A stretch of DNA of 64,000 nt from contig NC_134027.1 in NCBI RefSeq assembly GCF_964204645.1, forward strand, positions 25,718,485-25,782,484, given 5' to 3'. Origin of the DNA: Tubulanus polymorphus (lineage: Eukaryota > Nemertea > Palaeonemertea > Tubulaniformes > Tubulanidae). The notes below the pieces were generated by a model. That model was given only the letters and a program-made list of their open reading frames with translations, was not told where the DNA came from and did no database searches. The first letter of the stretch is position 1; each line of letters begins with the position of its first letter. Position numbers and translations under genes: made by a program. Positions 538-54,990 of this stretch are shown here, piece after piece.

Positions 538-1443
538 GTCATAGATGGCTGGATATTGATGATGGCCGGTACGCTGCGATGCATGCGCCGCCATCTCAAC
601 ATTTCACCATCATTTTTAACACATTTGTCATGATGACACTGTTCAATGAGATCAACGCACGCAAGATCCATGGACAGAGAAATGTTATATCTGGACTACA
701 TAGGAATCCTGTCTTCATTGGCATCTGGATTGGCACCATGATTGCTCAGGTAAAAGCATTACCTCATTTCAAGTTCTTGGTTTCTATATCCCCATTATGT
801 TAATGTCCTATAGTGTTTCTATATCACCATTATGATGAATTGCAGTAGTTTCTACATCTTCATTCATACCCCAATGTGCTTGCATTCACAATTATCTTTA
901 TTAATGATTTGTTCTAATTAACAGGTTATAATTGTACAAATTGGAGGTGTAGCATTCAGTACTGCAAAACTAACACTTGAACATTGGATGTGGTCATTGT
1001 TCTTTGGTGTCGGAGAACTATTGTGGGGACAGGTTAGTAGCATTCATTAAATGAGGGCTTTATCTCAGAGATGCAAGTTTCTTGACAGATAACTCGGGCC
1101 AGTTGCTCAAAAGTTAGTTAAAGATAGCCGGGGGTTAATTATCGTCAACTATACCACTGGTTAACTTGAAACCGATTTTTGATTAAGTGGCCCCTGAAAT
1201 TTTGTGTAAACGATCTTAGATTGAAATTGTTAACCTTGTGGCAATATTCATCATCTGCAGGTTGTAACCACAATTCCAACTAATAAACTTCCTCGTATGC
1301 TGAGTTGGGGCTCCGCGACTGAAGAAGAAATTGAAGCTCTCGAAGATAAACTAGCAGCCCCCGATGCAGACCAGGATCAAGATGCAGACGGACGACGTGG
1401 TCAGATATTATGGGTTCGAGGTTTAACTCGTTTACAGCATCAG
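538..1443 (+). CDS. PMCA: plasma-membrane Ca2+-ATPase, shared 3' exons
   Basis: Three exons are read at 538-749, 925-1032 and 1261-1443, with acceptors ctag, acag and gcag and donors GTAAAA, GTTAGT and GTAAGT. They encode the last transmembrane part of a P-type IIB calcium pump. Visible family signatures are [62 protein letters not shown], then an acidic stretch and [17 protein letters not shown], which is the start of the autoinhibitory calmodulin-binding domain. The first visible exon begins inside a codon (phase 1), so the rest of the pump lies upstream of the window. The last exon ends in phase 0 exactly inside the calmodulin-binding domain, where alternative 3' exons join. The product exports Ca2+ from the cytosol across the plasma membrane using ATP. 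Family assignment is very secure from the near-complete match to animal PMCA. Confidence 0.96.
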
Positions 1444-3388
1444 GTAAGTGTGGAACGGCCTGTAGTAATGTCGCCGTCGTTGTCGTCGCTTCGTTCGTGG
1501 TTTTTTTACTTTCGTCGTAAATTAAAACAAGCCGAGCTTTCACGACTTATGCGACGAGAGACACCTACCAGCGATCCTACGTACTACAGGGCTCTTAACG
1601 AGTCACCTATGAGGTTTATACTAGGATAGCCTCATACTAGGATCCTGGGTTAGGCTTCCCTACAGGGCTCTATTTAGGCTGCTACAGTAGAACCTCGTTA
1701 TAACAAACTTTCAGAGACCATCTGTTCGTTATAACCGATAGTCCTTTATTAGAAATTTGGGACAAAATTGTAGGTTTGTAATAACTGATGGTTTGTATCT
1801 GAGTTGGTTATAACGAGGTTCCAGTGTGCTAGGCTCCTACTAGGTTCCTACAGTGCTCCTGATAGGTTCCTATAGTGCCCCTACAGGGTTCCTGAATTCA
1901 GATGGTTGATGTTGTAAGTATTTGTTGTGTTTTTACTGTATTCTTGCGGATGCGAGACCCCCTGATATCAACCTTCAATAAACTTAGTAGATTAGTATAG
2001 GGGGATTTAATTTTTCCCATGGCAATCTGGACTATCTTTTTCAACTTTCTGATTTCATGGGAACAGATGCTCATAGAGGGTTTAGGTTTATCAGGGATCC
2101 AGTTCCACTATTTTACTTGATTCTAAATTTTTCATTATTCAAATCAAAATTCCTGAAAAAATCGAAAAATTAGGGTTGATTTCGATTTTTCTGGGCTATG
2201 TTGTTTAATTACTCATTCTAAAATTGATAGTGAGGATTTGAGCCTTGGGGAGGGGGGTTATTTTCCGGAAAGGGTCTCGTCCCTGGAAGGATACAGTAAG
2301 AGGATATGGCTAGAAATTTGATCTATAGTTTTCAATTCAATTCTTAAATTACTCGCAACATTTTCTCAAAACGAAATATTAAAACAACGCTCTAAGCTTT
2401 TCGAATATAACGGCAGAAATATACACGATTTATTGCGTAGAAAGATATTATCGGTTATCGGTGCCGTTTCTTAATGCTTTCTCAAAATAAAAGTCGTTTT
2501 TTTTTTTCGAAATAAAGAACATGACTGAAAAAATTGTTGACTATCGTTTGAATATAATTGTTGTAATCATCGATATTGTGTCGCCATTCTTTATAATCAG
2601 ATGTTTTTTTTTCAAATTTCGGCAAAATTTCATCCTCCTTAACCCTTTCCTGACTGACCTTTCGACTTCATTACTGTGGGGCTGTATTGAGGTGTTCAAT
2701 GTGGCCTGACTGACCCTTTAATTAAATCAAAAATTTTCCTGAGTATACTTGAAAATGGCCAGAAAGGGTTAAGTTTGCTGATTTTTTTTGAAGAAGTCGA
2801 CTTATAACTCGAGTTTAGTCCGTGTTTTCTGAGGCTATCGATATAAGAGTATGGAAAAAAATATTTCTTCGAAGAAAACGAAATTCTTCTTTCGCAGGTG
2901 TTGGAACTGAATTCGATGTTGTATTTTACGCTGTGATTATAACATTGAGAAAAAAAAACCGAATTCATTCTCTAATTTCTAACAACTTTTTCTCTCCCCT
3001 ATTTCTAACTCCGGTGTTGGAATTTGTTAAACGATTTTCTCTCTAACTCGCATGCGGTATTATATCAATTTGATTTCGTATTTTCGAAACCTTCCTTTCT
3101 AACGACAACTCCCAGCGGCGATTCCAAGCCTCAAACGACTAGGTTTACTAAACTACGTTATTTTCTGCTATTTCTACTATTAAATCACTCAGAATTATTA
3201 TCATTATCATTATTACTATTATTATAATTATGATTAATATTAATTTATTTAGTTGGCACACATGCAGCGACGTTTTGATTATCGAGTTTATTTTCGCGTG
3301 CACCCGACAAACGCACACGCTATCGTTTATTTATTTATTTTTTCTCTCAAACTAACCAACAGCGCTTTGTGTTTTATTGTGCCAACAG
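1444..3388 (+). other. PMCA: PMCA intron with MITE and AT-rich sequence
   Basis: This intron joins the shared exons to the first alternative terminal exon. It holds a palindromic MITE near 1685-1826 and AT-rich sequence. Short open frames in it (for example around 2521-3227) show no recognisable protein family. If the intron is retained, translation would run on to a stop near 1629. Confidence 0.7.
1685..1826. mobile_element. mariner/pogo-like MITE
   Basis: Inverted ends are visible. The left end starts CAGTAGAACCTCGTTATAAC, and the right end, read on the other strand, is CACTGGAACCTCGTTATAAC. TA precedes the left end. About 140 bases separate the tips and no coding capacity is seen. Terminal CAGT and TA flanking suggest the Tc1/mariner/pogo group, though the TA is not clear on the right. 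Confidence 0.6.
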
Positions 3389-3757
3389 TTACGAGTGGTG
3401 CGAGCGTTTAAGAGCACGTTGGAGGACCTTGAAGAACGACGTAGCGTGCACAGTTTCCACAGCCTGCATAGTATCCGCAGTTCGCGTAGTCAAAGCCACA
3501 AACCTCTATTCGAGGACGTCAACTCGGCGACCGTGACGCCGACTGACCCCCCTCTGAACAGCACGGCCGCGTCGTACTTGCTAAACCAGGACCGACGGTC
3601 GAAAAACAAGAGCCACTCGGTCGATAACGTGGCCCTGATATTGGACAGCTCCGGTACGAGCCGGTCGGTGTTCATACCCGTCCCGAAGCTAATCGGAGTT
3701 GGCGTTGGTGGCGGCGGCGGTGGCAGCGACGCCAAAATTCACGAGACGACCTTGTAA
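3389..3757 (+). CDS. PMCA: PMCA alternative terminal exon 1 (b-like C-terminus)
   Basis: The acceptor gccaacag at 3388 joins in phase 0 after RLQHQ. The exon encodes 122 residues. They begin LRVVRAFKSTLEDLEERR, the second half of the calmodulin-binding domain, and continue with a Ser/His-rich SVHSFHSLHSIRSS region, KPLFEDVNS, and a glycine run (GVGVGGGGGG). The tail ends H-E-T-T-L. ETTL fits the class I PDZ ligand pattern (S/T-x-hydrophobic) like the ETSL/ETSV ends of vertebrate PMCA b variants. Length and layout make this the most conserved, b-like tail. The glycine run just before the PDZ ligand is unusual and may act as a flexible spacer. Stop TAA is at 3755. Confidence 0.9.
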   Translation, partial: LRVVRAFKSTLEDLEERRSVHSFHSLHSIRSSRSQSHKPLFEDVNSATVTPTDPPLNSTAASYLLNQDRRSKNKSHSVDNVALILDSSGTSRSVFIPVPKLIGVGVGGGGGGSDAKIHETTL

Positions 3758-5902
3758 AATATTTTGATCGAAGGCTACTTCTCATTTTACCCCCCACCCC
3801 TCGCTCTCTCTCTCTCATATAGACTATTGATATCTAGATATGGTTAATATTTGCGTGTGTGTGCATGTGATTTGAATTATGTTTTTAACGCGATGAGTTT
3901 GTATTGAAGACGAAGTTGTGGTTTTATTATTAAGTTTCACGAGGAGGACCTTGTCGTGCTGTACCAGCTATCCCCATATATGGCACGCGTATCAATAGAA
4001 TTTGAATTAGACTTCGATAGAATTCATTTAATCGAATCTGAAAAGAAAGACGGCATCATTGTCCAAAAGCGACACCTGGTGGTTCTTCACTTGTCACATT
4101 AGTTTATGTCCTACTAGACACTAGCGACACCTAGTGGATTCTCAATTGCCATTAAGAGAATGGTTCATGTCCTACTTAACACCAGCAACGCCTGGTGGAT
4201 CCTCACTTGCCACAGGGGGAATCCTCTATTGCAGCATATTTGAGATTTTATTGCACATTAGTGACACCTAGTGGATCCTTACTAGCCACAGTCAAACCTA
4301 GCATCCCCATGACAATAAGAATAATCAATCATTAATGAAAACTATACCAAACACATTGAAATGATTTGATGTATATTTGTAAATTCTGTGACGATGTATG
4401 GAGGAGCCTAAATGAACTAATTTTTACTACGTGCTCGTCACGCCATCTGGTGGGATAGCTGGTGTCGCGGTTTTAACCACTGCGAAAACTGCAGTTTAGA
4501 AACAAGATATACGTCAATTGCGGGCACCTTATCTAATCTATGAACTGATGATGATGAAATATAGTGGTTCCGTCGCGAATAAGACAAATATTGACAAAAA
4601 AAGCAACTCGTCGAAGCACTGAAAAATTGTAAATACGTTTCGATCACTTTAAAATGAGACTAGAGTCTCTCTCGATTGAAAGTCGTTTGATTATCATTTT
4701 ATTTTATTTTATATATGAATATATAGATATATATGAATATATATTTTTTATACGTACTAAGAATAATATAAATGCCTCTTAGATTCATCTACCACTGGCA
4801 TGTGAGTGTAAAGATCAATTCAATGTTTTATTGTGTACGCGATTAATTGAATAATTGATTACTATTGATAACTAATTGATTGTTGTTTTTGAAATTAGTT
4901 CGTGTTGGAGTAGAATTAGTAATTAAGATCTGGATATTGTAAATAATAGTAGTACGATAATACGCCGGTAGATGGCGTGCGTGTTGTTTTCCGCGCGATA
5001 TTGATGGATTTTGCCGCCGCCTCTTAAAACGGTTGCTGCTCATTGACTGCGATTGTGTTCTTCAATTCATCGTTCACCTCGGTCACATTCTTCCTTTCAT
5101 CATCCCCATCCTTATCATCACTGTCGTCATCGTCGTTATCCTTATCGTTCCTGCGTCTGCCCGATCGTTCGTACATCGCTACCGTGCATGTTTACGTCTG
5201 TCACAAATGAAAACTCTCCGCCGATATTTTGCGCATGTTCAAAAACTGTTACAAAGAATCCTCGGTCGAACACTGCATTTCACAGTTGCTTAGGTTTAAT
5301 TTGGTTTCATTCGACTCTGGACCCAGTTCCACAGTTAGACCTGACTACCACTACCACTATTAGTAGTAGCTCAATTACTCCATTGGAACATTGAAATATG
5401 CTCAAAATCAGAATAATTTCTAGTTCATTTTCAATTAGACTTAATTTTAGATGTACAAAACGATGGTTGACACCAAAGTAGTCAGGTTTGCAAATTGCGT
5501 GGGTCTTATTTGACTCTAGACCCAGAACTGGGTCGAGGAAATGATGTCATTATCAATAATTTGATGACCTTATAGAGTCGCATTTGACCTCGGAAGAGTA
5601 AAATGTAAATAACCTGCGACTGTGAAACCTTGTCGGGGTCGCGTTGATCGTTCCATATTCTATTTACAGTCCGAAAAAAAATCACGAATTGCATTATCGC
5701 ATTTTGAAAACTGTTTGCACACAAAAACACAAACCGTCTGTTGCCTAGTCTCAACGTTCATGTTCTTTGTTTCGTTCTCCATATAGTCACGCGTAGCATC
5801 TGTCGATGCGGCCATTTTGTTTTTGTTTTTTCATTTAATTTTTATTCGGTTTTCCGCGTCCATGTCTGACCATGTAGTTTTTGTTTTTTTCTCATATTTC
5901 AG
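3758..5902 (+). other. PMCA: 3' UTR of PMCA tail 1, then intron
   Basis: After the first stop codon comes a CT microsatellite near 3803, a tandem repeat with CTCF-like cores (4068-4274), AT-rich sequence near 4690-4760, and sequence leading to the pyrimidine-rich acceptor at 5902. No further coding exon is evident. The pyrimidine-rich stretch at 5050-5160 gives open frames by low complexity only. Confidence 0.5.
4068..4274. repeat. tandem repeat with CTCF-like cores
   Basis: Four copies of a 15-base core occur at 4068-4082, 4123-4137, 4184-4198 and 4260-4274, spaced 55, 61 and 76 bases apart. Each reads close to AGCGACACCTAGTGG and is followed by related sequence such as ATTCTCA or ATCCTCA. 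On the minus strand the core is CCACTAGGTGTCGCT, one base from the bilaterian CTCF core CCACTAGGTGGCGCT. A weaker related core (CACGCCATCTGGTGG) lies at 4439. The CTCF link is an inference; the repetition is directly visible. Confidence 0.55.
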
Positions 5903-6052
5903 ATTCGTGTAGTCAATGCTTTTCGCATGGGTTTAGATTCGCGTTACGACCTTGACAAACGTAGCCTAGCCTCCATACAATCACTACAAAACATAAGCCG
6001 AATGTCCAAAAAGCCTAATTATCCCGAAAACATGGCAGAAACCGCGATTTGA
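5903..6052 (+). CDS. PMCA: PMCA alternative terminal exon 2
   Basis: A strong acceptor (tttttctcatatttcag) at 5902 opens a 49-residue phase 0 frame. It starts IRVVNAFRMGLDSRYDLDKR, which continues the calmodulin-binding domain after RLQHQ and matches the IRVVNAFR of vertebrate PMCA. It then runs SLASIQSLQNISRMSKK and ends M-A-E-T-A-I with stop TGA at 6050. ETAI is a class I PDZ ligand. The exon is paralogous to the one at 11850, sharing VVNAFR, GLD-RYD, LDKR, SLQN-SR and KKP. It is therefore best read as a mutually exclusive last exon with its own 3' UTR. It was missed as an open frame because it is short and has no start codon. Confidence 0.88.
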   Translation: MRVVNAFRMGLDSRYDLDKRSLASIQSLQNISRMSKKPNYPENMAETAI

Positions 6053-9000
6053 CCTCCTTAATGACTAGCGATTCGCATCAAAACCGCTGTTAGGCTTAAA
6101 ATGACCCTCATTTCAGCGTACAAAGAAGACAGTATTACCGCTATGTTCCTTCACTTGTCACTTGTAGTTCTTTTCTTTATACAGAGAAATAATGAATTGT
6201 TACGACTAGCGAAAAAACACTTAAGGCTTTTCTAAAAAGATCTAAAAAAAAGTCTATATTTTTTAGCTGGCTGCATGTGTTCGAAATCTTGCTTAATCAG
6301 TTTCGTTTCGAATCAGTTCTTAAAAAATCTAGGCCAAGTTGTGCAGACGTTGCTTGTAATCTTAAATTGTTAGATCGGTTTTTGAGCTGAATTGGTCTTA
6401 GACTGGTCTTAGATGGAAGCCATGCGGTGACTGTGCAACTGGCCCCTGATCGCTAGCGCTTTTTAAGTTGCCGCTGGAATTTTGCTCGGCATGCTGCTCA
6501 TACGAAACGTGGACCTGGTTTTACGGTTTGCAGAGGTTTTTTACAGTTTTTTCGATTAAAATCAGAGTTAAAGCTAGTTTTAGGAAAATCGAAATCTAAT
6601 TCTAACCCACGAAACTGTAGAACTGGTTTGTGGTTAGTGAAAGGGTGGACCAAAGTATGAGTCCTGTCGATGATGATTTAGGTGAAAACGAAATCATTAG
6701 TGTCGCGTCTTGTTGAGCAGGATTTTCAACACGTGCAGTTCGCTATAAAGTTAATCTTGTTTTTCTTGGATCCACGAGACCGGAGTAGGACGAATCAGAG
6801 TTCAGGATCCAGTTCCACAGTAGTAAGTAAGAGTTAACTCCAATTAAAAATTAATTAAATTTCAATGGGGTAACTCTGAATCTCGAAATATTTCGAAATC
6901 AAAGATTTGAGTTAGACAAGGTTTACCTATCGAGGTTCAGCTACTAGTTCATAACGCGTTCATAATGCAATAACACATTGGTGACTGGGTTTTTTACTCG
7001 AAAGAAGAAAGATATTTTGAAGTCGAGCTAATGTGACGTAGTTCCTAATAATAACGAACTGTATTAATCATTAGATGAATTACTTTATAATGCCAGTGGA
7101 GAGTAAAATATAATTTGTTTTTTCTCGAAGACAAGTCCTATGTGCGCGTGTTGGGGGTTGAATCGGACAAACGTTCATTTCAATTTTTCCTTAGCTCTTG
7201 ATCTACCGATGTTATACACAAAAAAAACACCCAAAAACATGTTGTTGGTGAGAGTTTTCTTTAGGGGATATATATTCAAATTTACTATGTTTGATTAGAA
7301 AGAAATTAGTTTGCTATTTAAGGAATTTTTTGAAGTTGCTCTGAAGAAAATTGTCATCCTTTCTCTGGTTTTTTGTCTATGCATGTCTTGGCTGTTTGTA
7401 CATAGAATACGGGGGTCTTTTTAAGATTTACGTTACCAGTGGATCAGAACTCTTTGAATTGTGGCATCAAAGCCACTCCAAGATCTATAAGTTATAAAAG
7501 AATATGAGAAATAATTTGAAAAAAGCAAACCGGGACCTCATTCGAACCCCGTGGGGCTAGGTGATGATCCTGATCAGAAACGAATCTTAGATTTCCAAAG
7601 TGATTTGGATTCTTAAACATGAAGAATCTTACAGAGACCTCGCTCAAAATTACAGAACCGATTGTAGATAGATGTACAAAATCATGTGTTTGTTAGAGCA
7701 TGTTACTTTAGTTTTGTATTTGATAAAAGTTTTCAGAATATTCTATTTTGGAGTAGAAGTCAAAGAGCCAGTACAGACTAAATAAGTGCTTTCAATTCTG
7801 ATTGGTTAATTATGCGAGCTATGGACCAATCACAGTGGCTTTTACATTTGTACATAATTCCGGTTTGAAATACGTACTCGTTGATTGGTTACTTCATATA
7901 TCTTATGCATCGCATTGACATTTAGAAGCCTTAAACTTCTGATCCGAAATAGAAATTCTGATTACCTATATCCTTATATGGAAATGTCACAGACTATGCG
8001 ACATCTGAGAAGAAATTTTAGTTTCATATTTCTGGTGCTTGCTGTAGATACTGTCGTTATTCACTGTACATTTGTAGATAAGAAAGAATTGTTCCCTGAA
8101 CCCTTATGATGATTATTATTGCGGTATGCCTGTTTGTTCCTTTCGATATTAATCTGAATTCTTGGAAATCCATTATTTAGTTGACTACGAATCATTTGGA
8201 TGATGTTTTGATATTGGAATCGTGTTGGAACGAGATATCCGATAATTCCTTCGTTTAACGCACAGTTCGGCGCAATTCAAATTCTCCGCGCAAAAGTTGA
8301 TAATAATCATCGCGGTTTTATTTCATTATCCATCTTTAAAACCTAGACACTGCCATTTTCATTGGTCGATATTATACTGTTGAGATTCAGGAGTGGATCT
8401 GGAGGGACTTCAATCGAGATTTTTCAGGAAAAAGCTCCTGCTCTAGGATATCTGTCACGAAGTATTGAGGGAAATATTTTCCAGAGAAATTTCATTGAGA
8501 GTTTCCCCGAGATCTGCGCCCGTAGTTTCGACGCTATTTCAAACTTCCTCAAATCGCTCGTCTGTCTCCGTACTTTCTTCAAACTCTGCACTATGCGAAG
8601 AATTTGATTGGAGACGGATTTGTTTTGGAAGTGTTGTCACAACCATTTGTTTCCTCGATATTATTTTGTTAGCAGCACGATGAACTCCTCACCTTTGTTT
8701 AGATGATTATATTTTTGCATGATGTTTTGTTCGTTTTTACACAAACCGGGAATGCTCGTTAAGTCCGCTCGTAATTGCAACTCATGCTCCTCCAGGTCAC
8801 GGTAGTATTTCTATATTTGACTACTCCTTAAGTTACTTCTAACCTTACCGCAAAAATGTCTTGGATGTTGAAAGAAACTTGGTCAGTTGCTTTCGAATTC
8901 ATGGATTTAAACTTTATTTCGACTTTACGGCATCAAACTTGAGTGATACAAAGTTTAGATTTATGCTAAGCAGTCAAACTCATCATAGTTGAGGTGATCA

Positions 9001-11849
9001 TCAAATTGATGACTTACCCCCCCCCCCCCCCTGTTTGTAGATGATGAATTATCATAGATAGTGCATTGAATCGGAAATACAAATTGTAAGTCAAAAATAG
9101 AGACAACTTCAGCGTTGTGATGACTTATCCGAATGATGAATTACGCTCAGTAGATTGGATTATGCAAATTGCAGAGAAAAAGTCTTAATTTATGCAATGA
9201 CTTATCCAATGGACTTCAGTTTATGCCAATCACACCAAACCTGCGATGTAAGTCAGCAGCTGGTCGGCCGTAAATTATTTGAGTTGCAAATCTAGCGAAT
9301 TTAAGCATACCCATCCGAGGTTTACTATATATAGCATAAGAGATCTCTTCATCTCAATTGTACTCGTGTAACGCCGCCTAGTGGGGCGACGCTGAACTAA
9401 AATTGTTCGCTAATCATTGAAGACCTCGATTGTAGTCAGTTGAGCGTGAATGCTAGGGTTTCGAAGTCAATCGAGACGGAATCGGATTGATATTTCATAT
9501 AATCAGCAACAGAGTTTTTTTTTCGAATCGCTTTTAATTTTTTGCAAATCGATTTTTTATTTTTTTCGTTTCCGGCGGCTACGAAATCGTTGTTGTCGAC
9601 GAAAAGAAAAGCGTGGTTTTCAAATGAAAACTCAAACACTCAAAAAAATACAATAGAAAAATAGACAGAAGTAAAATAGATTGTATAAATATATGAATAG
9701 TAATAATATTCTGTATATTAAGTGCTTTGTGTATATGCATACAATACTTATGATAATTAGATTTGAATAAATATTATTATTATTATTAATATTATTATTA
9801 ATATTGATATTAGATATGAGAGATATATTACATTATTATTATTATTATTATTATTATACATCGGTTTCTAGTGGTAGCCGTTTTTGCCATCTTGGAAAAA
9901 AGTTCGAAAAAAGATCGGGGATAGTTGAAAAAATACCAAACCAACAATACCCATAAACAGAAAATTCTTAAAGACTTTAAAAGGTCTTTATGATTTTTTG
10001 CTTGAAACGATTTGTAGAAATAAAAGAGAAAAAGAGTGAAAGAGTTTGTGTAAATTTCATCGTAAATTTTTTTGGTTCGATTATGTTTTGTTATTATTAC
10101 TCGAAATGAATGGTTTTTATTGAAACGAATAAAACTTTTTAACATCTTCAAAAACAAAAAAAACAAAACAAAAAGATATTATCGTCGTTTTTACGAATGG
10201 CGCGGATTCGTTCGGCGTTCCGCCGGGGACGAGACGACCGGACTATCGCCGCGATGACTCTCTACAGACTGACGAACATGGATCCGAATTCGGTGGCATT
10301 CCCGTCCTGCCTTTTATGACATTCTTTACCAGACGACCGAAGCCTTCAGTTCCCAGTGCTTCTAGTGTTTATTTTCTGTATCACGTGCTTTTCGTGTTTT
10401 TGTTTTGGCGGTCGTAGTCGTCGTGCATTTCTGTTAGTATTGTAGCAACCACTACTCACCACTCCTACTACGGACCTTGCATCACCTTCTGGACACTCCG
10501 GGTATGAGGTAGATTAGTTTTTTATTTCTTCTTCAGTTTTATTTATTTCATAACTAGAAATTGCATGTTCGTATTATTTCGTATCGTTTTTAAGTTCGAA
10601 ATAGCCTTGAATTTTAGCGTCGTTATTAGTAACGGCCTATATTCTCTCTCCGTCTGCCAATGTTTCGATAGACGATACACGCATTGTGATGACATCATAC
10701 ACGCGCACATTCACCGTTTCCGACACTCGTGAGAAAGTTTCCGCTTTCGATGATGAGTTACGGAGACGAACCCCCTGCTGGTAATAAAAAGTCGAACTGC
10801 ATTGTCTCCGTGTTGGCTTTCTTAGTATATTCTTCTTAGAAAATATAGCCTGCTTTTGTAAAGTAAATAGCGTCATTGAAACCGATGACGCGTAAGATGT
10901 TACCGATAGAACTAATTTAGTTATTAACTATAGTTTGCTTTTCTTGTATCACGTGCCGAGAAAACGTCGCATATTATTATGAGCTTGGCTTCTTGAACAT
11001 ATACGACAAATTTGTCATGCGTGCTCGCCGTAATTACCAAATATGGAATGATTACCGTGCATAAATTTGCATACATAATTAACCCTTGAATACGATATAT
11101 TTTTATATACAGGCTATAGATTATTTGAAAGAAGAATTACTAACTGAAACTGTCGAGATTTTCGTGTTGATATGAATTGATTCATTCATCCGTCGAGCGC
11201 CGAGATGCCACCAACTGATTTCTTGCATTAAATTCTCAGAACCTGAGTTCTACAGTTCAACTCCGGGTCGAAATCGTTTTATTTTCAATAGCTTTTAACT
11301 CTTTCCAGTTCTTGTGATTTTAGATTCGATTTGAGAGTCAACTGCAGTAAAAGTCCTTAATAATGCCACCGAATGGGACCAATGAAAAAACATGGCATTA
11401 AAACAAATTTAGCGTTATAAAGAATGACATTTTCATTGAATTTGAGTCACATTGAGCAAATTTGTTCTCGAAAAAAAATGTTGGAAAAGATGGCATTATA
11501 ACGGACTTTGACTGTAATTAGAATTGAACAAATTTTAAGTCTTGAGGGTCAAATTTGAACTGGATCTGGAAGCTAGTTTGCACTGTTTCGAGTTAAGAGT
11601 TAAAGCAATCAATCGAAAATGAATGAATGAAACTGTTTAGGAGTGAATTTAAACTCACAAATGTAGCACTGGGGCCATTAACTCAAAAGTTGGTTAGGTT
11701 AAGTCTTAACCAACTTCTGAGCAACTGCCTGATGGGTGCTGATATTTAGAAGATAAATCGTGGCTGGCGTCTCGACTCGCGTGATGGACTCTCAGTTCGT
11801 TGTGTATTTCTAGTACCTGTGATGATTTTATGTTTTCTCTTGTTTTCAG
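6053..11849 (+). other. PMCA: 3' UTR of PMCA tail 2 and long intron
   Basis: About 5.8 kb lie between the second and third alternative terminal exons with no convincing coding exon. They hold a pallindromic GGATCCAGTTCCACAG copy near 6805, a poly-C run near 9018-9032, a repeat of the CAGTCAAACT family near 8971-9240, and a possible poly(A) signal AATAAA near 9768 in AT-rich sequence. There is also a GC-richer stretch with CCACTAGGCGGCG on the minus strand near 9371-9387, and a MITE at 11345. Open frames between 7885 and 10876 show no recognisable domain. Confidence 0.5.
11345..11514. mobile_element. mariner/pogo-like MITE
   Basis: About 24-base inverted ends are visible: left CAGTAAAAGTCCTTAATAAT (then GCCA), right on the other strand CAGTCAAAGTCCGTTATAAT (then GCCA). 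TA follows the right end. The element is 170 bases long and has no coding capacity. Terminal CAGT with TA is typical of Tc1/mariner/pogo derivatives. Confidence 0.75.
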
Positions 11850-12026
11850 ATTTGTGTTGTAAATGCTTTCCGCACGGGCTTAGATACACGATATGACGGT
11901 CTTGACAAACGAATGAGTCTCTCTTCGGACCACTCACTTCAAAATCTCAGCCGACTTATGTACAAAAAGCCCTCGGCAATGCCTGAACATCCCGAAAACT
12001 CCAGCAATGTAGAAACCGCACTATGA
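11850..12026 (+). CDS. PMCA: PMCA alternative terminal exon 3
   Basis: The acceptor tctcttgttttcag at 11849 opens a 58-residue phase 0 frame. It starts ICVVNAFRTGLDTRYDGLDK, continues with RMSLSSDHSLQNLSRL and a KKPSAMPEHPENSS stretch, and ends V-E-T-A-L with stop TGA at 12024. It is clearly related to the exon at 5903, so one exon arose by duplication of the other. Cys replaces the Arg at the second position of the RVVNAFR calmodulin-binding segment, which could change calmodulin affinity. ETAL is again a class I PDZ ligand. The surrounding 3' sequence would form a third 3' UTR. Confidence 0.88.
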   Translation: MCVVNAFRTGLDTRYDGLDKRMSLSSDHSLQNLSRLMYKKPSAMPEHPENSSNVETAL

Positions 12027-17221: not shown

Positions 17222-18188
17222 AATAATTTGAGTAGTTGAAAACTGCTTTGTAAAACGTCTAGACTTTTCACCGAGAAAATTTCTTTTCAAAATCAAAACA
17301 ACGCAATCTGAATAAATCTAGCTTATTTAATTTCGCTCATTAATTCGACTGAAATGTTTGGTGCTAAAACTAAATTTGATGACATTGAATCCACCTTAAC
17401 GCGGGCGCAAAAAGAGATCTTACCACACCAGATATTTCTAAAATAATCATAACTGGGTTTGTACAATGAGGTATAATAATAATTATAATAAATATTAATA
17501 ATAATTAATTGTTATCATAACAACAACTTGTAGAGGACAATAATATTAATACTAATAATAATAATAATGATGATTTTAGGTTTTGTACCTTCATTGAGGT
17601 TTTGTTCTGTTAATGCCATGAATGGTTTTTTTATGAAATAAATACTTTAAAAAGTGGAATATTTGGCGTTTGATGTTTGTTTTGTGTGGATGGAACTCGT
17701 GACCCCCCCCCCCCCAAATCCACCTCAATACCGGTATACAGGTCTCACACGACGTGATGTCCTGCCAGAGGTAAGCAACAGAACAGTATTAACACGTCAT
17801 CGGCTGAACCCAAGGGGGATGGTGCCCCGGCCTCAATCAGACCCTTCACCCGCCCCTGATAATAACCACGACCAGTATATGACATAGTCAACTCGCAAAA
17901 ATTTACAGTACGAATACATAGTAGATGAATAGATTGAATCGACTGTTACCATCCGTTATGATCCAGTCCCAACTTCGGCAACCTAAAAGCGAGTTTCAAC
18001 ATGACGTATTTGACACGGAAAAAACGAAAATACAATCAATTCATTTCATGAAATATATCGTATATATTTACAAATACTAAGATGTCGAAACTGTACAATT
18101 TTGATATCTAACACGTGCTAGTGCCCAGTCGTAACAGCAACATCATCCGGTAAATCATTCCTGGATCCGACTGTTCGTCTCTAACACC

Positions 18189-18847: not shown

Positions 18848-20622
18848 TGGACACTCTCTTCCCGGGACGATTTCATCGGCTCTTTTACCACAATTATCAT
18901 AACCATCGCATTGAAGCGTTTTACTAATACAGCGACCACCATCAGGACACGATAATCCGTCATCACACGCTTCTGTCAAATATCAACAAGATCATAACAC
19001 TTCAAAAACTCATTACGTTTAATGCTGACACTACTTACTAATTTCATGTAAGTTTATAGTATTCCTGATTATGATACAGTCGAAACGTTGAGTAAAACCA
19101 TTTCCATATAGACGACGAATTTTACTATCGACTTGGTTGAAAATCGCCAAACATTTTGCACGAAGGTAGGCCTACTTAATGAACGACCCCAGCCCATAGT
19201 TAAAACTAGTTTATTTCCAATTATTTGACTTCCATAGATTTTCTTTTCATGAGCCTATCATATTCTTACTGTATTCAAATATAGTGTAAACTATTTCAAA
19301 TCCTTCGTGCGTTTTGCCCTGGTCGTCGCCGGAGTTACTTTCAAATTCAAACGTTACCGAATTCTGCGTCGAAAACATGGCGGTCTGTTTCAATTTCTTC
19401 GTCGGACCGCAGAGTCCGTGCCCTGCAACGAAATAATACAACAGTCGTTCATCGAATTTCGCTAGTATTAATAAGTGTTTCTTTCGGAATTTCAGTGATT
19501 CTTTTAATACTTACTTCCCGATAAACTTTTTGCCGGATTTTTACCACGTCCGTCGTAGATAGTGAGTTTATCTTTGGAACAACTGGCGTGGTATTCAATA
19601 TCCAGCATTTTGACGGTGAGTATTAGGAATTTATTGGTTCCAGCATCGAGAGTCAGGTAACAGTAAGCTAGTTTCGGGTAATACGCAGACTGCGTATAGT
19701 GAATTATACCCGCCATTTGACTTGATACATCGATCGTTTTCGTACAATTTCTATCCATATAAACTGAAATGTAATCAACAAAAAGGTCAGCGAATGATAG
19801 ATTAATAAACATCTCCAGTTACCAAGAACCCAATCTTGGCCAAAATGAGTTTAGATTGTTATACAGTAGATAGACTGCGTTTAACCCGAAGTCGATTGCC
19901 CGGATTATCACGTGCCCCGAAAAAAAAAAAAACATTACAAGTTTTCCTACTCCAGTTCATTGTGACACCAACCTATCTCCTGCTCGGAATGTTCCGTAGT
20001 TCGGGTACCTCAGAGGAGAGGATTTATTGGTCCTGTGAGATCTGAGACAGGGGAAGTCTATACTTCTCATGTACTACTAGTCTTGCCATACAGATCTTTG
20101 ATCACGTCCATAATGCTGATTGCAGCGCGTGGTGTGATAACCGTATGTTTTGTAAAAGTTTGATGGTTAAAATAATTAGAATTTGTGTGTAAAAAAGAAA
20201 ATACAGATCTTTCGCTAGAATTAGGTTCTAAACTTGTAATATGTACATGTAACGTCTGAAGACTGGTCTTAAATCATAAGTTCGGATCTGAGTATAAAAG
20301 GCTTTTAGAAAATCAAGGACAAATCAAGAATTGCTATACATAGGGGCCTACTAGTTTCTGAGAACCACTGCTTGAGAAAAAAACCCATGATTTATGAAGA
20401 AAAACTAAGAGCAGTGACGTTCAATTCTTCTGAAAATGGCTTACAGAATTGAGTCTAAACGTCACTACTCTCTTAGTTTTTCTTCATAATTGGGGTTTTT
20501 CAGATTGTATGATGAAGGATGAAGTCCTATATTAACTTACCTTGCGCATACTTATTCGACAGTACTGAGACGGGAAGAAATACGAACACCGTTAGGAACT
20601 GCATCAGAGAAAACCGGGCCAT
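18848..20622 (-). CDS. secreted CUB and LDLa domain protein
   Basis: Four exons on the minus strand are supported: 20541-20622, 19515-19763, 19270-19422 and 18848-18972 (or to 18838 with another donor). Exon 1 starts at ATG 20622 and encodes MARFSLMQFLTVFVFLPVSV then LSNKYAQ, a good signal peptide. The next two exons form one CUB domain (residues about 30-135) with its four cysteines (NC, YCYL, SCSKDKL, LCGP) and the motif DKLTIYDG. The LDLa exon has six cysteines (ACDDGLSC, GRC, LQCDGYDNC, REC) but has NCGKRADE where the family usually has DCxDGSDE, so the calcium site is imperfect. All junctions up to the LDLa exon are phase 1. With the putative last exon the protein is about 297 residues. 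It should act outside the cell or at its surface; the partner is unknown. Confidence 0.8.
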
Positions 20623-29677: not shown

Positions 29678-30619
29678 TTAATTTCTAAAGCGGATTTTCA
29701 TGCAGAAATATTCGCGAATTTCTCGTCCCAGTAAAAGATATATGTAGAAATTTACGACAAAGTTACACGCAAGAAAGTGAGTGGAAATATCATATAGAAA
29801 ATTTCTCTGCTCCGGTGAGACCGGTAAAAATGAAATAAAAGTATTTGGAAGTGTAAATATTGCAAATGCTAGTGAAACTGTTACGAGCATTATTGTTGTA
29901 CGTTTCGATTTTGTAGTTTTCTGATCGGACGAAACTATTTTTGAACCTCCAAATAACTGAATTATAATTACAGAATTTGATATCACGATCAAACTTAGCG
30001 GTAGGAGGAAAACATAGGTTACATATGAGGAGAAAAATTTGATTTGGTCGAGTAATTCATAGTAACATCCGAAGAACTGGTCAGTCGTATGTATCGATAA
30101 AGTTGGTAGAAGGTACAGGATCAGTGCACTCACTGCAGTAATTAACAATATAGCTAATCTAGCGAATCTAGGTGTACATATCAAACGAGATGAGAACAGG
30201 AAGAGAACAACTGCCACACGTTCTATAGATATCGCTACTATTAACCATGTACTATAGCTGCACGCAAGTGTCATTGTAAATTCATATATTTGACAACTAA
30301 TCACTGAATTCATCAAGAATATAGGATCATCTTTAACATGTAAAAGAACAAACTGCAAAACAGGCATCAGTGTAAAATTGATACAGAACGTGAAATCACT
30401 TACAGACAAAACGATAAGATAGTTTGCGTAAGATAAACTGCGGAATCTGTGACTTATCATTATCAGGAAAGTAGCTGAATTCCCGAAGGCTCCTAGGAGG
30501 AACAAGATAGTTAGAATGACCAATGTAACAGTACGGTAGATTCCAGACCTGTTTACGATAGACATAATAACAATGTAACTGTTGTAAGTTCGACCGATTT
30601 GGATCTGAGTAGAATTCAT
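29678..30619 (-). CDS. class A (rhodopsin-like) peptide-type GPCR, copy 1
   Basis: An intact single-exon frame of 313 residues has seven hydrophobic segments. It has N-glycosylation sites near the N-terminus (NST at 2; NRS at 23) and GNSATFLIMI in TM1, LSVSDF in TM2 and a Cys before TM3. SIERVAVVLFLFSSR stands in place of the DRY region, and the TM7/helix 8 stretch is VNFYIYLLLGREIREYF in place of NPxxY. TM6 lacks the usual CWxP. The Glu-Arg at the end of TM3 and the NFxIY in TM7 are like those of lophotrochozoan FMRFamide- and related peptide-receptor expansions. The ligand cannot be told. The gene lies inside GRIP intron 1 on the opposite strand, with a paralogue 2.4 kb away. Confidence 0.9.
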   Translation of the reverse strand: MNSTQIQIGRTYNSYIVIMSIVNRSGIYRTVTLVILTILFLLGAFGNSATFLIMISHRFRSLSYANYLIVLSVSDFTFCINFTLMPVLQFVLLHVKDDPIFLMNSVISCQIYEFTMTLACSYSTWLIVAISIERVAVVLFLFSSRLICTPRFARLAILLITAVSALILYLLPTLSIHTTDQFFGCYYELLDQIKFFSSYVTYVFLLPLSLIVISNSVIIIQLFGGSKIVSSDQKTTKSKRTTIMLVTVSLAFAIFTLPNTFISFLPVSPEQRNFLYDISTHFLACNFVVNFYIYLLLGREIREYFCMKIRFRN

Positions 30620-32052: not shown

Positions 32053-33003
32053 TTATTTGACTGAATTTCTACAGCGGATTTTCATGCAGAAATATTCGCG
32101 AATTTCTCGTCCCAGTAAAAGATATATATAGAAATTTACGACAAAGTTACACGTAACAAAGTGAGTGGAAATGTCATATAGAAAATTTCTCTGCTCCGGT
32201 GAGACCGGTAAAAATGAAATGAAAGTATTTGGAATTGTAAATATTGCAAATGCTAGTGAAACTGTTACGAGCATTATTGTCGTACGTTTCGATTTTGTAG
32301 TTTTCTGGTCGGACGAAACCAGTTTCGAACCTCTGAATAACTGAATTATTATAACAGAATTCGATATCATGATCAAAATTAGCGGTAGGACAAACACGTA
32401 GACTACGATTAAGCCGAAATAGAATATTTGGTCGCATAATGTGTGGTAACATCCGAAAAACTGGTCAGTCGTATGTATCGAAAAAGTAGGAATAAGGTTT
32501 AGAACTAGTGCATTTACCGCAATAATTATCAATATAGCAAACCTAGCGAATCTCGGTGTACATATCAAACGAGATGAGAACGGGAAGAGCACAACTGCCG
32601 CTCGCTCCAGAGTTATCGCTACTATCAACCACGAACTATTGCTGCACGCGAGTGTCATTGTAAATTCATATATTTGACAACTAATCACTGAATTCATCAA
32701 GAATATAGGATCATCTTTAACATGTAAAAGAACAAACTGTAAAACAGGCATCAGTGTGAAATTGATACAGAACGTGAAATCACTGAGACACAAAATGATC
32801 AGATAGTTCGCGTAAGATAAACTGCGGAATCTGTGACTTATCATTATTAGGAAAGTAGTCGAATTTCCAAAGGCTCCAAACAGGAATAAGATAGGCAGAA
32901 TGATCAGTGTCACAGTACGGTAGATTCCAGACCTGTTCACCACGGACATGATAACCATGTAACTGTTATAAGTTCGACCGATTTGCATCTGAGTAGAATT
33001 CAT
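32053..33003 (-). CDS. class A (rhodopsin-like) peptide-type GPCR, copy 2
   Basis: An intact single-exon frame of 316 residues is very close to the copy at 29678. Differences cluster in TM4 to TM5 (for example SALILYLLPTLS against NALVLNLIPTFS, and the QIFYFGLIVVYVFVLPLILI stretch), the region that often shapes ligand specificity. It keeps GNSTTFLIMI in TM1, TLERAAVVLFPFSSR after TM3 and VNFYIYLLLGREIREYF in TM7, and adds SVK at the C-terminus. Upstream of its start codon lies an expanded 69-base repeat not seen at that size in copy 1. Both copies are open throughout, so both are probably functional or very recently duplicated. Confidence 0.9.
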   Translation of the reverse strand: MNSTQMQIGRTYNSYMVIMSVVNRSGIYRTVTLIILPILFLFGAFGNSTTFLIMISHRFRSLSYANYLIILCLSDFTFCINFTLMPVLQFVLLHVKDDPIFLMNSVISCQIYEFTMTLACSNSSWLIVAITLERAAVVLFPFSSRLICTPRFARFAILIIIAVNALVLNLIPTFSIHTTDQFFGCYHTLCDQIFYFGLIVVYVFVLPLILIMISNSVIIIQLFRGSKLVSSDQKTTKSKRTTIMLVTVSLAFAIFTIPNTFISFLPVSPEQRNFLYDISTHFVTCNFVVNFYIYLLLGREIREYFCMKIRCRNSVK

Positions 33004-36840: not shown

Positions 36841-37908
36841 ATGTTCAGTCACAACATTACTAGCACAACTACCGCAATGACAACATCTCAACTCAACCGG
36901 TGTCAGAGTTACCAAACTCATCCTGTTCAGTGGATGAACAAATTGTATGTTTTAACATATTTATGCTGGTATCTACCGGCGTCAGTGCTGGGTTTAGTAT
37001 TCAACGCATTCACGTTGTTAGTTCTAAAACAGTTTAAATCTGATAATTATTTTCTCATCAAAATTCTCGCCGTAGAAGATCTTTTGTTTATGATCGCTAC
37101 ATTCATTCTGTTTCCGCTGAGAACTGCGTACGTTTACACCGTTTTGGGAGATCTTGTATTTCGCACGAGTGACTGGAATTTCGGTTGGATTTTCATCTCA
37201 GTCGCCTTGCCATTTTTCTACATATTTCAGATGACTCGTAACTGGTGCACTGTACTGCTCAGTTTAGAGCGGTTAATCGTCGTATTGTTTCCGATAAAAT
37301 CTCGTAAAATTCCCAAGAAGTTAATATCAGTTTGGGCGGTGGCGTTCATTTCACTGTTAAGTTTTTGTGGTCATTTTTCCCAAATAATACCAGAAAAAAA
37401 ACTTGTGTTTATGAAATGTCCTGCCAATTGGCCGTATATTGTGATCCGGGGTGAAAAATATCAATATTGGAACAACAATTTATACGCATGGCGCTTTAGA
37501 GTTTCTGAGATTTTTCTTTTCATGTATCTTACTGTCATGATCCCAATTTGCTTTTTAGTTGTCATAAATTTTATCCTCATATTGGTGACATTTTACCGTC
37601 GGGTTACTCGACGTTCAGAGCTTGGTATAACTGATGAATCATCTAGAAGAGAAATGCGGGTTTTAAGGATGGTTTTATCGGTTGTTCTAGTGTTTATTAT
37701 TTGTGAAGGTTTTGGTTTTCTTGATCGTTTGGGAATTCTCCATAAATTTAAGGATATACCCGTAAGACTGATAGCGTTGGGATTTTCTATCATTGATTCA
37801 TCAGTAAATTTTATTGTGTATTGCGCGACAAATGACAAATTCCGGAAAGCAGCTTTTGACATTCTAAACTCAATACTCGGTAACTATGCAAATAAAATGA
37901 CTGGCTAA
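36841..37908 (+). CDS. class A GPCR, FMRFamide-receptor-like
   Basis: A single-exon frame of 355 residues starts MFSHNITSTTTAMTT (N-glycosylation site NIT) and has seven hydrophobic segments. TM1 has GLVFNAFTLLVL. TM2 has LAVEDLLFMI, matching the LAxxD motif. TM3 ends NWCTVLLSLERLIVVLFPIK, where ERL replaces DRY, and TM7 has SSVNFIVYCATNDKFRKAAF in place of NPxxY. The Trp in TM3 and the NFxxY form are common in FMRFamide-receptor-like families of spiralians. It is not closely similar to the two GPCRs at 29678 and 32053, so it is an independent resident of the same GRIP intron, here on the same strand as GRIP. The ligand is unknown. Confidence 0.92.
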   Translation: MFSHNITSTTTAMTTSQLNRCQSYQTHPVQWMNKLYVLTYLCWYLPASVLGLVFNAFTLLVLKQFKSDNYFLIKILAVEDLLFMIATFILFPLRTAYVYTVLGDLVFRTSDWNFGWIFISVALPFFYIFQMTRNWCTVLLSLERLIVVLFPIKSRKIPKKLISVWAVAFISLLSFCGHFSQIIPEKKLVFMKCPANWPYIVIRGEKYQYWNNNLYAWRFRVSEIFLFMYLTVMIPICFLVVINFILILVTFYRRVTRRSELGITDESSRREMRVLRMVLSVVLVFIICEGFGFLDRLGILHKFKDIPVRLIALGFSIIDSSVNFIVYCATNDKFRKAAFDILNSILGNYANKMTG

Positions 37909-50610: not shown

Positions 50611-50884
50611 TCCTCGAATTCTGCAATGACGTAAAAGTATGAAGCGCTGTTTATATACAAAACTTCACGGGAAGCACAGAATGTATACAAAGAGAGCCTG
50701 GATATACTGTGAAAATAAAAAATGGGCCCCCGAGAGCTAGCGGGGAGAGGGTATGATAGAGCATGAACAAAAGCTCAGACGTACTGTATTGTATTTTGAA
50801 CTGAAGTGTACAATGCGCACTAGATCATAAAGTTTTTTTCTTAATACTTTAAATACTTTAGACGGTTGAGTTTTATATTTTCAG

Positions 50885-53381
<2,497 letters not shown>

Positions 53382-53929: not shown

Positions 53930-54515
53930 CCACCAATTCTCGTAATGTGATGAGTAAAACAGTGGAGGTATTGCTGGAGAAAGATGGTCTGACGTTCGGT
54001 TTTACAATCCGTGGAGGAGACAATAACGACAAATCTAAATCCCGCCCATTAACTGTCACTCAAATCCGACCCGGTAGTGCTGCTGATAGGTATGTCTGCC
54101 GAAATCAAAATTAGGCATCTAGTACCACACGATTGAAAAATTCTGAAATGTAGATAGTGTACTCATGAATCGATTAACTTGTCAAATTGAACTCAGGACC
54201 CAGTTTCAAAGTTCTTAAGTTTGATTATGAACAGTTAAAATGTGCTCATTTTCAACATTTTAAACTGCAAAACTGGATCTGAGCCCTGCATTGAATTTGA
54301 ATCGACGGAAATGAGTCCTGTTTAATAGACTTGAAGTAGATATTGAATGCTCAATCATTTTATTACCAGAGAAAGCAGTCTGAAGGTCGGAGATCGTATT
54401 CTGGCTATAAACGGAATCAACGTGATCAATATGAAACTGGAAGAAGCTCTTTTACTATTAAAACGTTCCGACGAGGAAGCCGTAATACTCGTCGAGTATG
54501 ACGTCTCCGTTATGG
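53930..54515 (+). CDS. GRIP: GRIP PDZ domain 2 (two exons)
   Basis: Exons 53930-54089 and 54370-54515 encode MSKTVEVLLEKDGLTFGFTI RGGDNN..., then SKSRPLTVTQIRPGSAADR, ESSLKVGDRILAINGINVIN and MKLEEALLLLKRSDEEAVIL, ending VEYDVSVM. The binding loop is LTFGFTI. It matches vertebrate GRIP PDZ2 (GNTFGFVIRGG; ITCVRPGGPADR; IEYDVSVM). Leu stands where PDZ1 has His, suggesting class II or mixed ligand choice. The introns fall after the Arg codon of ADR (phase 2) and at the domain end (phase 1). Confidence 0.94.
54195..54283. mobile_element. short foldback, GGACCCAGTTTCA ends
   Basis: The left AGGACCCAGTTTCAAAGT mirrors the right side (CTCAGATCCAGTTTTGCAG on the other strand), with AACAGTTAAAATG in the centre. 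It lies in the intron that splits PDZ2. Confidence 0.5.
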
Positions 54516-54990
54516 GTAAGAGTAGCTCCCCGTGCTCCCCTCACCCCCCTCACTCCCCTCCCCATACATCCATCCATCCATCCGTACAACCTAACACGGT
54601 TGTTCTAGTCTACGCATACTTTTACTTTTTAATGACTTTAACGAAGCAATTTGTATTTCGAATGAAAAAAATGTCTAGCAGCGGCGATAGTGTTTTTCAC
54701 ATGGTTCGTATTTGGTACCTGGTGCTCTCTATTTCTCAACAGAAACAAAACTGAAAATTCCAGAGTAAAGACAACTTCGGCAGCAATAAGTCAGATAATT
54801 AATACACCAGGTACCTGAAATAGGTCTTAGACAGAATGGACAAATTGGGCTGCTGAACAAAACCATTGATTTCTAATTTTTTTTGAACCGTGTTCAAAGA
54901 CCAAAACGTCTTCTTTTACTCAAGTTGAATCAGAGAAAAGAAACTCCATTTTTGAAATGATACACGGCCATGCCTACAAAACTGAAAACA

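Follow-up and report, generated by a model that had tools for sequence, protein, structure and literature searches.

Three candidate tandem last exons, each with a predicted PDZ-binding end, at the 3' end of an apparently single PMCA gene of Tubulanus polymorphus

The tails of PMCA (type IIB Ca2+-ATPase) pumps help to set the speed, the place and the scaffold of Ca2+ clearance. In vertebrates a PDZ ligand is carried by the b forms of these pumps and is absent from the a forms, according to passages of PMC8835232 and PMC9307954, and the question raised by a locus of the nemertean Tubulanus polymorphus is whether a PMCA gene can vary its tail and keep the PDZ end throughout. We read the locus, with a probability of about 0.75, as the 3' end of an apparently single PMCA gene with three competing tandem last exons. 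At the level of the sequence, it has the exon anatomy of a PMCA 3' end, a junction at the inferred position of vertebrate splice site C, a first terminal exon homologous to the vertebrate b tail, and two further terminal exons related by duplication and held under purifying selection.

Exon anatomy and the splice junction

The window, i.e., the whole stretch of 64,000 nucleotides that was analyzed, opens with the PMCA gene already running and contains its 3' end (Table 1). Segments upstream of the window make up the remainder of the pump and carry the pump motifs TGES, PEGLPLAVT, DKTGTLT and TGDGTND. Minisatellites lie between these upstream exons (-36800 to -35100 and -9950 to -9200 in window coordinates) and read as open frames of tens to more than 200 codons, with repeats of CLPGPTSLTLVSTWPYLSYPSV and of MYYHTVLL.

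Table 1. Features of the PMCA 3' end, in window coordinates.
Feature	Position	Strand	Remarks
PMCA exon, last membrane region	538..749	+	HRWLDIDD...GTMIAQ; first two bases finish a codon; Pfam PF00689 and PDB PMCA matches
PMCA exon	925..1032	+	VIIVQIGG...LLWGQ; phase 0 at end
Last common exon	1261..1443	+	first half of calmodulin-binding domain, W anchor; donor CAG/GTAAGT (slash, exon end), phase 0
Open read-through of first intron	1444..1629	+	61 codons; FILG end without PDZ ligand; candidate tail if the intron is retained
Terminal exon 1 (putative)	3389..3757	+	122 aa; end HETTL; apparent counterpart of vertebrate b tail
Terminal exon 2 (putative)	5903..6052	+	49 aa; end AETAI; apparent duplicate of terminal exon 3
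Candidate polyadenylation signal past terminal exon 2	10128..10133	+	AATAAA, motif only; others: AATAAA at 9766 and 10019, ATTAAA from 6555
Terminal exon 3 (putative)	11850..12026	+	58 aa; end VETAL; apparent duplicate of terminal exon 2
Further candidate polyadenylation signals past terminal exon 3	ATTAAA from 12481; AATAAA from 16785	+	motif only
Candidate polyadenylation signal past terminal exon 3	17637..17642	+	AATAAA and G/T-rich sequence; motif only

The assignment to PMCA is supported by structural matches of the three C-terminal exons joined to the tail of terminal exon 1, with E values of 5.7e-66 for PMCA2 and 3e-63 for PMCA1 in the PDB, and by a TIGR01517 (PMCA-type) match of 96 bits, which is partial and under the full-length cut-off. 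The last membrane helix is followed by a calmodulin-binding domain: PF12424 scores 55, 59 and 61 bits for the common exon with each of the tails and 24.6 bits for the common part alone, and the common exon with its tail can be aligned to 2kne, a peptide bound to calmodulin. Taken alone, the tails stay under the PF12424 cut-off (12.9, 14.9 and 17.6 bits versus 22.9), and that of terminal exon 1 has no significant match PDB-wide (E values of 0.095 and 0.1).

An AG precedes each of the three terminal exons, which begin in phase 0 and run to a stop codon at the last position given in Table 1, in agreement with the original prediction as to position, phase, stop and final residues. The protein reads TRLQHQ up to the junction and then LRVV, IRVV or ICVV, and this point falls within the 2kne peptide, which bears out the claim that the common junction sits inside the calmodulin-binding domain. 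In the PMCA1 chain 6a69, RIQTQ is followed by MDVVNAFQSG..., which we take to be the a/d-type insert, with another such start (IRVVNAFRSS...) coming later, at residue 1156; in the PMCA2 chain 9gsd, RIQTQ directly continues as IRVVKAFRSS. Judged by these two protein chains, from which the vertebrate junction was deduced, the nemertean junction is at the same point as vertebrate PMCA splice site C, after the conserved Q.

The acceptors had also been described as good. Over the 21 bases that precede the AG, terminal exons 2 and 3 have a pyrimidine fraction of 0.86, a value reached by 0.3% of 3,391 plus-strand AGs, and terminal exon 1 has one of 0.67 (reached by 10%); three constitutive acceptors give 0.57, 0.57 and 0.86, the one at position 538 having been scored one base off, at 539. 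With donor weights that were not trained on the source genome, three donors of the PMCA gene score 3.8, 4.5 and 8.7 bits, the strongest being that at 1443, and the best internal donor reaches -4.2 bits in terminal exon 2 and -0.9 bits in terminal exon 3; terminal exon 1 has one weak site (1.8 bits). With a stop codon in every tail and no serviceable donor inside terminal exons 2 and 3, a single exon would supply the C-terminus, and the splicing together of two tails seems unlikely for these two. Neither AATAAA nor ATTAAA occurs between the stop at 3757 and terminal exon 2, and an mRNA ending with terminal exon 1 would thus need a variant signal (e.g., TATAAA at 4767) or a longer 3' UTR.

The PMCA gene of this animal is apparently single, one having been found in genome searches in which only the best candidates were scored. 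In the 268 Mb genome, the common exon with the tail of terminal exon 2 (E up to 10) and the tail of terminal exon 1 (E up to 1) matched exons of the PMCA locus only. A candidate second PMCA gene was rejected, as the sole match outside the locus (44.7 bits) reads, by its motifs, as a Na+/K+-ATPase. No relatives were found in viral_contigs with the common exon and terminal exon 1, or in genome_contigs with the common exon and terminal exon 2, as expected for an animal gene.

The remainder of the window holds several other putative genes. Downstream of the PMCA gene, a plus-strand exon of a PDZ scaffold gene (54347-54754, with the PDZ part at about 54371-54490) has a GRIP1 chain as its best match (66.4 bits; best non-GRIP chain, 36.6), and 50845-51006 on the same strand, with a PDZ-like motif only, perhaps belongs to the same gene. 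Human ATP2B2 and GRIP2 are located close together on chromosome 3, so linkage between PMCA and GRIP may be old. Three single-ORF genes resemble rhodopsin-type receptors: two closely similar neighbors on the minus strand (29678-30619, which was scanned and matches 7tm_1, and 32053-33003) and one on the plus strand (36841-37908, 7tm_1). A possible secreted protein gene lies on the minus strand at about 18900-20622, with, by eye, a signal-peptide-like start (MARFSLMQFLTVFVFLPVSVL) and Cys-rich stretches. No Rfam family was found in the window at gathering scores.

Kinship of the three tails

The three tails stand out from the remainder of the window. A profile built from two vertebrate b tails was run against the 2,889 open segments of at least 15 codons on both strands of the window and ranked the tails in the first three places, with E values of 0.00034 for terminal exon 3, 0.0037 for terminal exon 1 and 0.048 for terminal exon 2, the next segment having an E value of 1. 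A six-frame scan of the window with the motif [VI][VIL][KRNQSTAV]AF[RKHQ] gave three matches, which are the three tails and nothing else. An acidic residue followed by [ST]x[VIL] precedes 19 of the 5,735 in-frame stops of the window (0.33%) and all three tails, of which terminal exons 2 and 3 are duplicates and hence not independent. Codon usage did not separate terminal exons 2 and 3 (log-likelihood ratios per codon of -0.09 and -0.13) from 170 open stretches presumed to be noncoding (mean -0.25, sd 0.17).

Neither the profile scan of the 2,889 open segments nor the motif scan gave a fourth tail in the window. The stretch 10143-10316, which contains an AFRxG-like sequence, was rejected as such, as it obtains 2.4 bits (E value of 28) even in a profile that includes the three tails themselves. 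The surrounding region (10190-10500), just past the AATAAA at 10128, looks richer in G+C by eye and contains a short open frame with IRSAFRRGRDDR; by eye, no good acceptor precedes this frame, and the profile does not support it (E value of 28).

The tail of terminal exon 1 is, by alignment, the counterpart of the vertebrate b tail. With its first eight residues removed it scores 69 against the PMCA1 b tail, a score equaled by none of 2,000 shuffles (mean 24.3, sd 4.5), and it does not align to the a stretch, where 836 of the 2,000 shuffles were as good. Terminal exons 2 and 3 form a pair of their own: 34-35 of 49 aligned residues are identical, and past the first eight residues no shuffle out of 2,000 is as good. 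By the Nei-Gojobori method, with two alignments of 49 codons and no error estimate, dS is 1.07-1.08, dN is 0.20-0.23 and dN/dS is about 0.2, and in the 600 bases on either side of the two exons no similarity beyond chance was found (16 and 72 of 200 shuffles as good). On these figures the pair is an old exon duplicate under purifying selection.

The link between terminal exon 1 and the pair is less firm. Past the first eight residues, the similarity of terminal exon 1 to terminal exon 2 (44 of 2,000 shuffles as good) and to terminal exon 3 (13 of 2,000) is weak, as is that of terminal exon 3 to the vertebrate b tails (8 of 2,000 for PMCA1 and 13 of 2,000 for PMCA2); in the same comparison, terminal exon 2 has no similarity to b, with 1,877 (PMCA1) and 1,764 (PMCA2) of 2,000 shuffles as good. 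The case for an origin of all three tails from one exon is therefore weaker than that for the pair, as terminal exon 2 lacks similarity to PMCA1 b and resembles terminal exon 1 only weakly. The three exons have the homology expected of a tandem duplicated exon substitution (homologous alternative exons), strongly for terminal exons 2 and 3 and more weakly for terminal exon 1 versus the pair. The simplest history, likely as regards terminal exon 1 and the pair, would be that a single ancestral terminal exon of the b kind, already ending in a PDZ ligand, was copied and its copies then diverged, and the three PDZ ends would in that case be inherited.

Tail choice and alternative explanations

We propose that three tandem alternative last exons, probably derived from one b-like exon, compete for the last common exon and its strong donor. 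Depending on the exon chosen, the pump would receive a different distal half of its calmodulin-binding domain, a different linker (tail lengths of 122, 49 and 58 residues) and a different final tetrapeptide, and in each case the anchor phenylalanine would be kept, together with a class I PDZ ligand. We infer that splicing uses each of the three in vivo, that the choice is specific to the cell type, and that it alters the calmodulin response and the PDZ partner. The original prediction, of several last exons that serve as alternatives and uniformly end in class I PDZ ligands, has support from sequence, homology and selection; its overall interpretation, in which tail choice tunes calmodulin affinity and PDZ partner, stands in part and is kept here in conditional form.

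Every tail keeps VVxAF, i.e., the VV pair and the anchor F. The first ten tail residues have a net charge of +3, +2 and +1 in terminal exons 1, 2 and 3; PMCA1 b has +2 here and the a stretch -1. Passages of PMC12693652 set out how much the anchor F and the first V matter for calmodulin. It is possible that tail choice affects calmodulin affinity, and the effect is probably milder than that of a/b splicing in vertebrates, which alters the same half of the calmodulin-binding domain.

Class I PDZ ligands have the C-terminal form [ST]-x-hydrophobic, to which the predicted ligands ETTL, ETAI and ETAL of terminal exons 1, 2 and 3 conform. All three exons end in ETx[LI], and no vertebrate-type a/b switch, in which one alternative is without a PDZ ligand, is seen among them. 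The last residue and the tail length differ among the exons, and such differences could change the PDZ partner. Among vertebrate pumps, passages of PMC9307954 report NHERF2 as bound by the b forms of PMCA1 and PMCA2 and not by PMCA4.

A different origin would make terminal exons 2 and 3 this animal's version of the vertebrate a-type exon, the a/b split then predating the protostome-deuterostome split and the a form having lost its PDZ end later in vertebrates. The shared junction and the shared VVNAFxxG start speak for this origin, which we consider unlikely, and in a search with the PMCA1 a-type stretch terminal exon 3 is the best of the 2,889 segments, at an E value of 0.2 that is not significant, with terminal exon 2 in eighth place and terminal exon 1 not listed. 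With the first residues included, none of 2,000 shuffles against the a stretch is as good as terminal exon 3, and 14 of 2,000 are as good as terminal exon 2; since VVNAF is common to all, the two exons resemble a and b alike as long as these residues are kept. Past the first eight residues, however, the similarity to the a stretch, which is one sequence of 34 residues, is not significant (1,572 of 2,000 shuffles as good for terminal exon 2, 196 of 2,000 for terminal exon 3), and kinship of the pair with that stretch is not supported there. A profile of the pair likewise obtains 1.7 bits on the a copy of PMCA1 versus 12.9 bits on the b copy, the latter value being itself only suggestive.

Two further explanations concern the use of the exons, and both are still less probable than an a-type origin. 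A PDZ switch might persist in the form of a PDZ-less tail made by retention of the first intron or from an unrecognised exon. That intron does stay open for 61 codons after the donor, with a chance of about 0.024 at the local stop frequency, but 33% of the 170 open noncoding stretches have a codon score at least as high, the read-through has no Pfam match, part of it resembles, by eye, a degenerate local repeat, and the donor that would have to be skipped is the strongest of the three scored; the read-through is probably intron. The least probable of the explanations holds that in most tissues the tail of terminal exon 1 alone is used and that terminal exons 2 and 3 are seldom-used relics. Terminal exon 1 comes first after the common donor and is the sole tail that matches vertebrate b well past the calmodulin-binding half, and the codon usage of the other two cannot be told from that of noncoding sequence. 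Yet relics would hardly have kept frame, anchor residues and PDZ end. In the pair the frames are intact, dN/dS is about 0.2 at a dS of about 1.07 (49 codons, no error estimate), there is no usable internal donor, and the acceptors are as pyrimidine-rich as the best of the three constitutive ones.

Comparison with known systems

A gene in which the tail varies and the PDZ end is kept would separate two effects that are mixed in vertebrate a/b splicing, and would provide a clean test system. Exon swaps are already known in the PMCA genes of vertebrates, Drosophila and C. elegans, according to passages of PMC9741552, which place Drosophila PMCA and C. elegans mca-3 among the families in which vertebrates, arthropods and nematodes have tandem duplicated exon substitutions, and take these to be convergent. 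The Tubulanus polymorphus gene bears on this view, as the residue at the junction and the b tail are common to the nemertean and vertebrate genes, and partly inherited exon swapping may be considered next to convergence. A possible though on balance doubtful history is that the protostome-deuterostome ancestor had a single b-like, PDZ-ending site C exon, which was tripled in this lineage without a PDZ-off form, the vertebrate a form having arisen later. In that history the coupling of one pump gene to calmodulin and to scaffolds would have been diversified, and one spliced gene would do the work of four mammalian genes.

What appears to be new here is the set of three tails, all PDZ-ended, with one clear b counterpart and no detectable a-like exon. 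In the literature searched, which mostly excluded subscription papers and included parts of PMC5641333, PMC8367381, PMC12092002 and PMC9546857, we found no report of three PDZ-ending PMCA tails in one gene. The b identity of terminal exon 1, the duplicate relationship of terminal exons 2 and 3, their lack of detectable kinship with the vertebrate a-type stretch past the common start, the exon swaps known in flies and worms and the apparently single gene are points that go beyond the original prediction.

PMCA splice diversity seems not to be general in arthropods, as attempts to find PMCA splice variants in a spider mite failed, like those in Spodoptera, according to a passage of PMC5535873. 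For bivalves, passages of PMC6987452 describe one PMCA gene that gives rise to several isoforms; they stress apical targeting and splice site A and contain no comparison of tails. The fly PMCA and C. elegans mca-3 belong to the same family and have homologous exons that are swapped by splicing; the passages of PMC9741552 give neither exon identity nor sequences. In the vertebrate genes ATP2B1-4, site C has the same inferred junction in the calmodulin-binding domain and a b tail that is PDZ-ended and homologous to that of terminal exon 1. Where vertebrates have one PDZ tail and one without, the Tubulanus polymorphus gene has three PDZ-ended terminal exons and no detectable a-type exon. In human ATP2B1 and ATP2B4, two C-terminal exons are distantly homologous to each other, as stated in an excerpt of PMC4465641, and 77 of 236 human tandem duplicated exon substitution events are C-terminal according to PMC9741552, again in part. 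In such C-terminal events, as in the nemertean gene, homologous 3' exons give rise to alternative C-termini; unlike in that class, the nemertean set would number three exons, with terminal exon 1 far removed in sequence from the pair.
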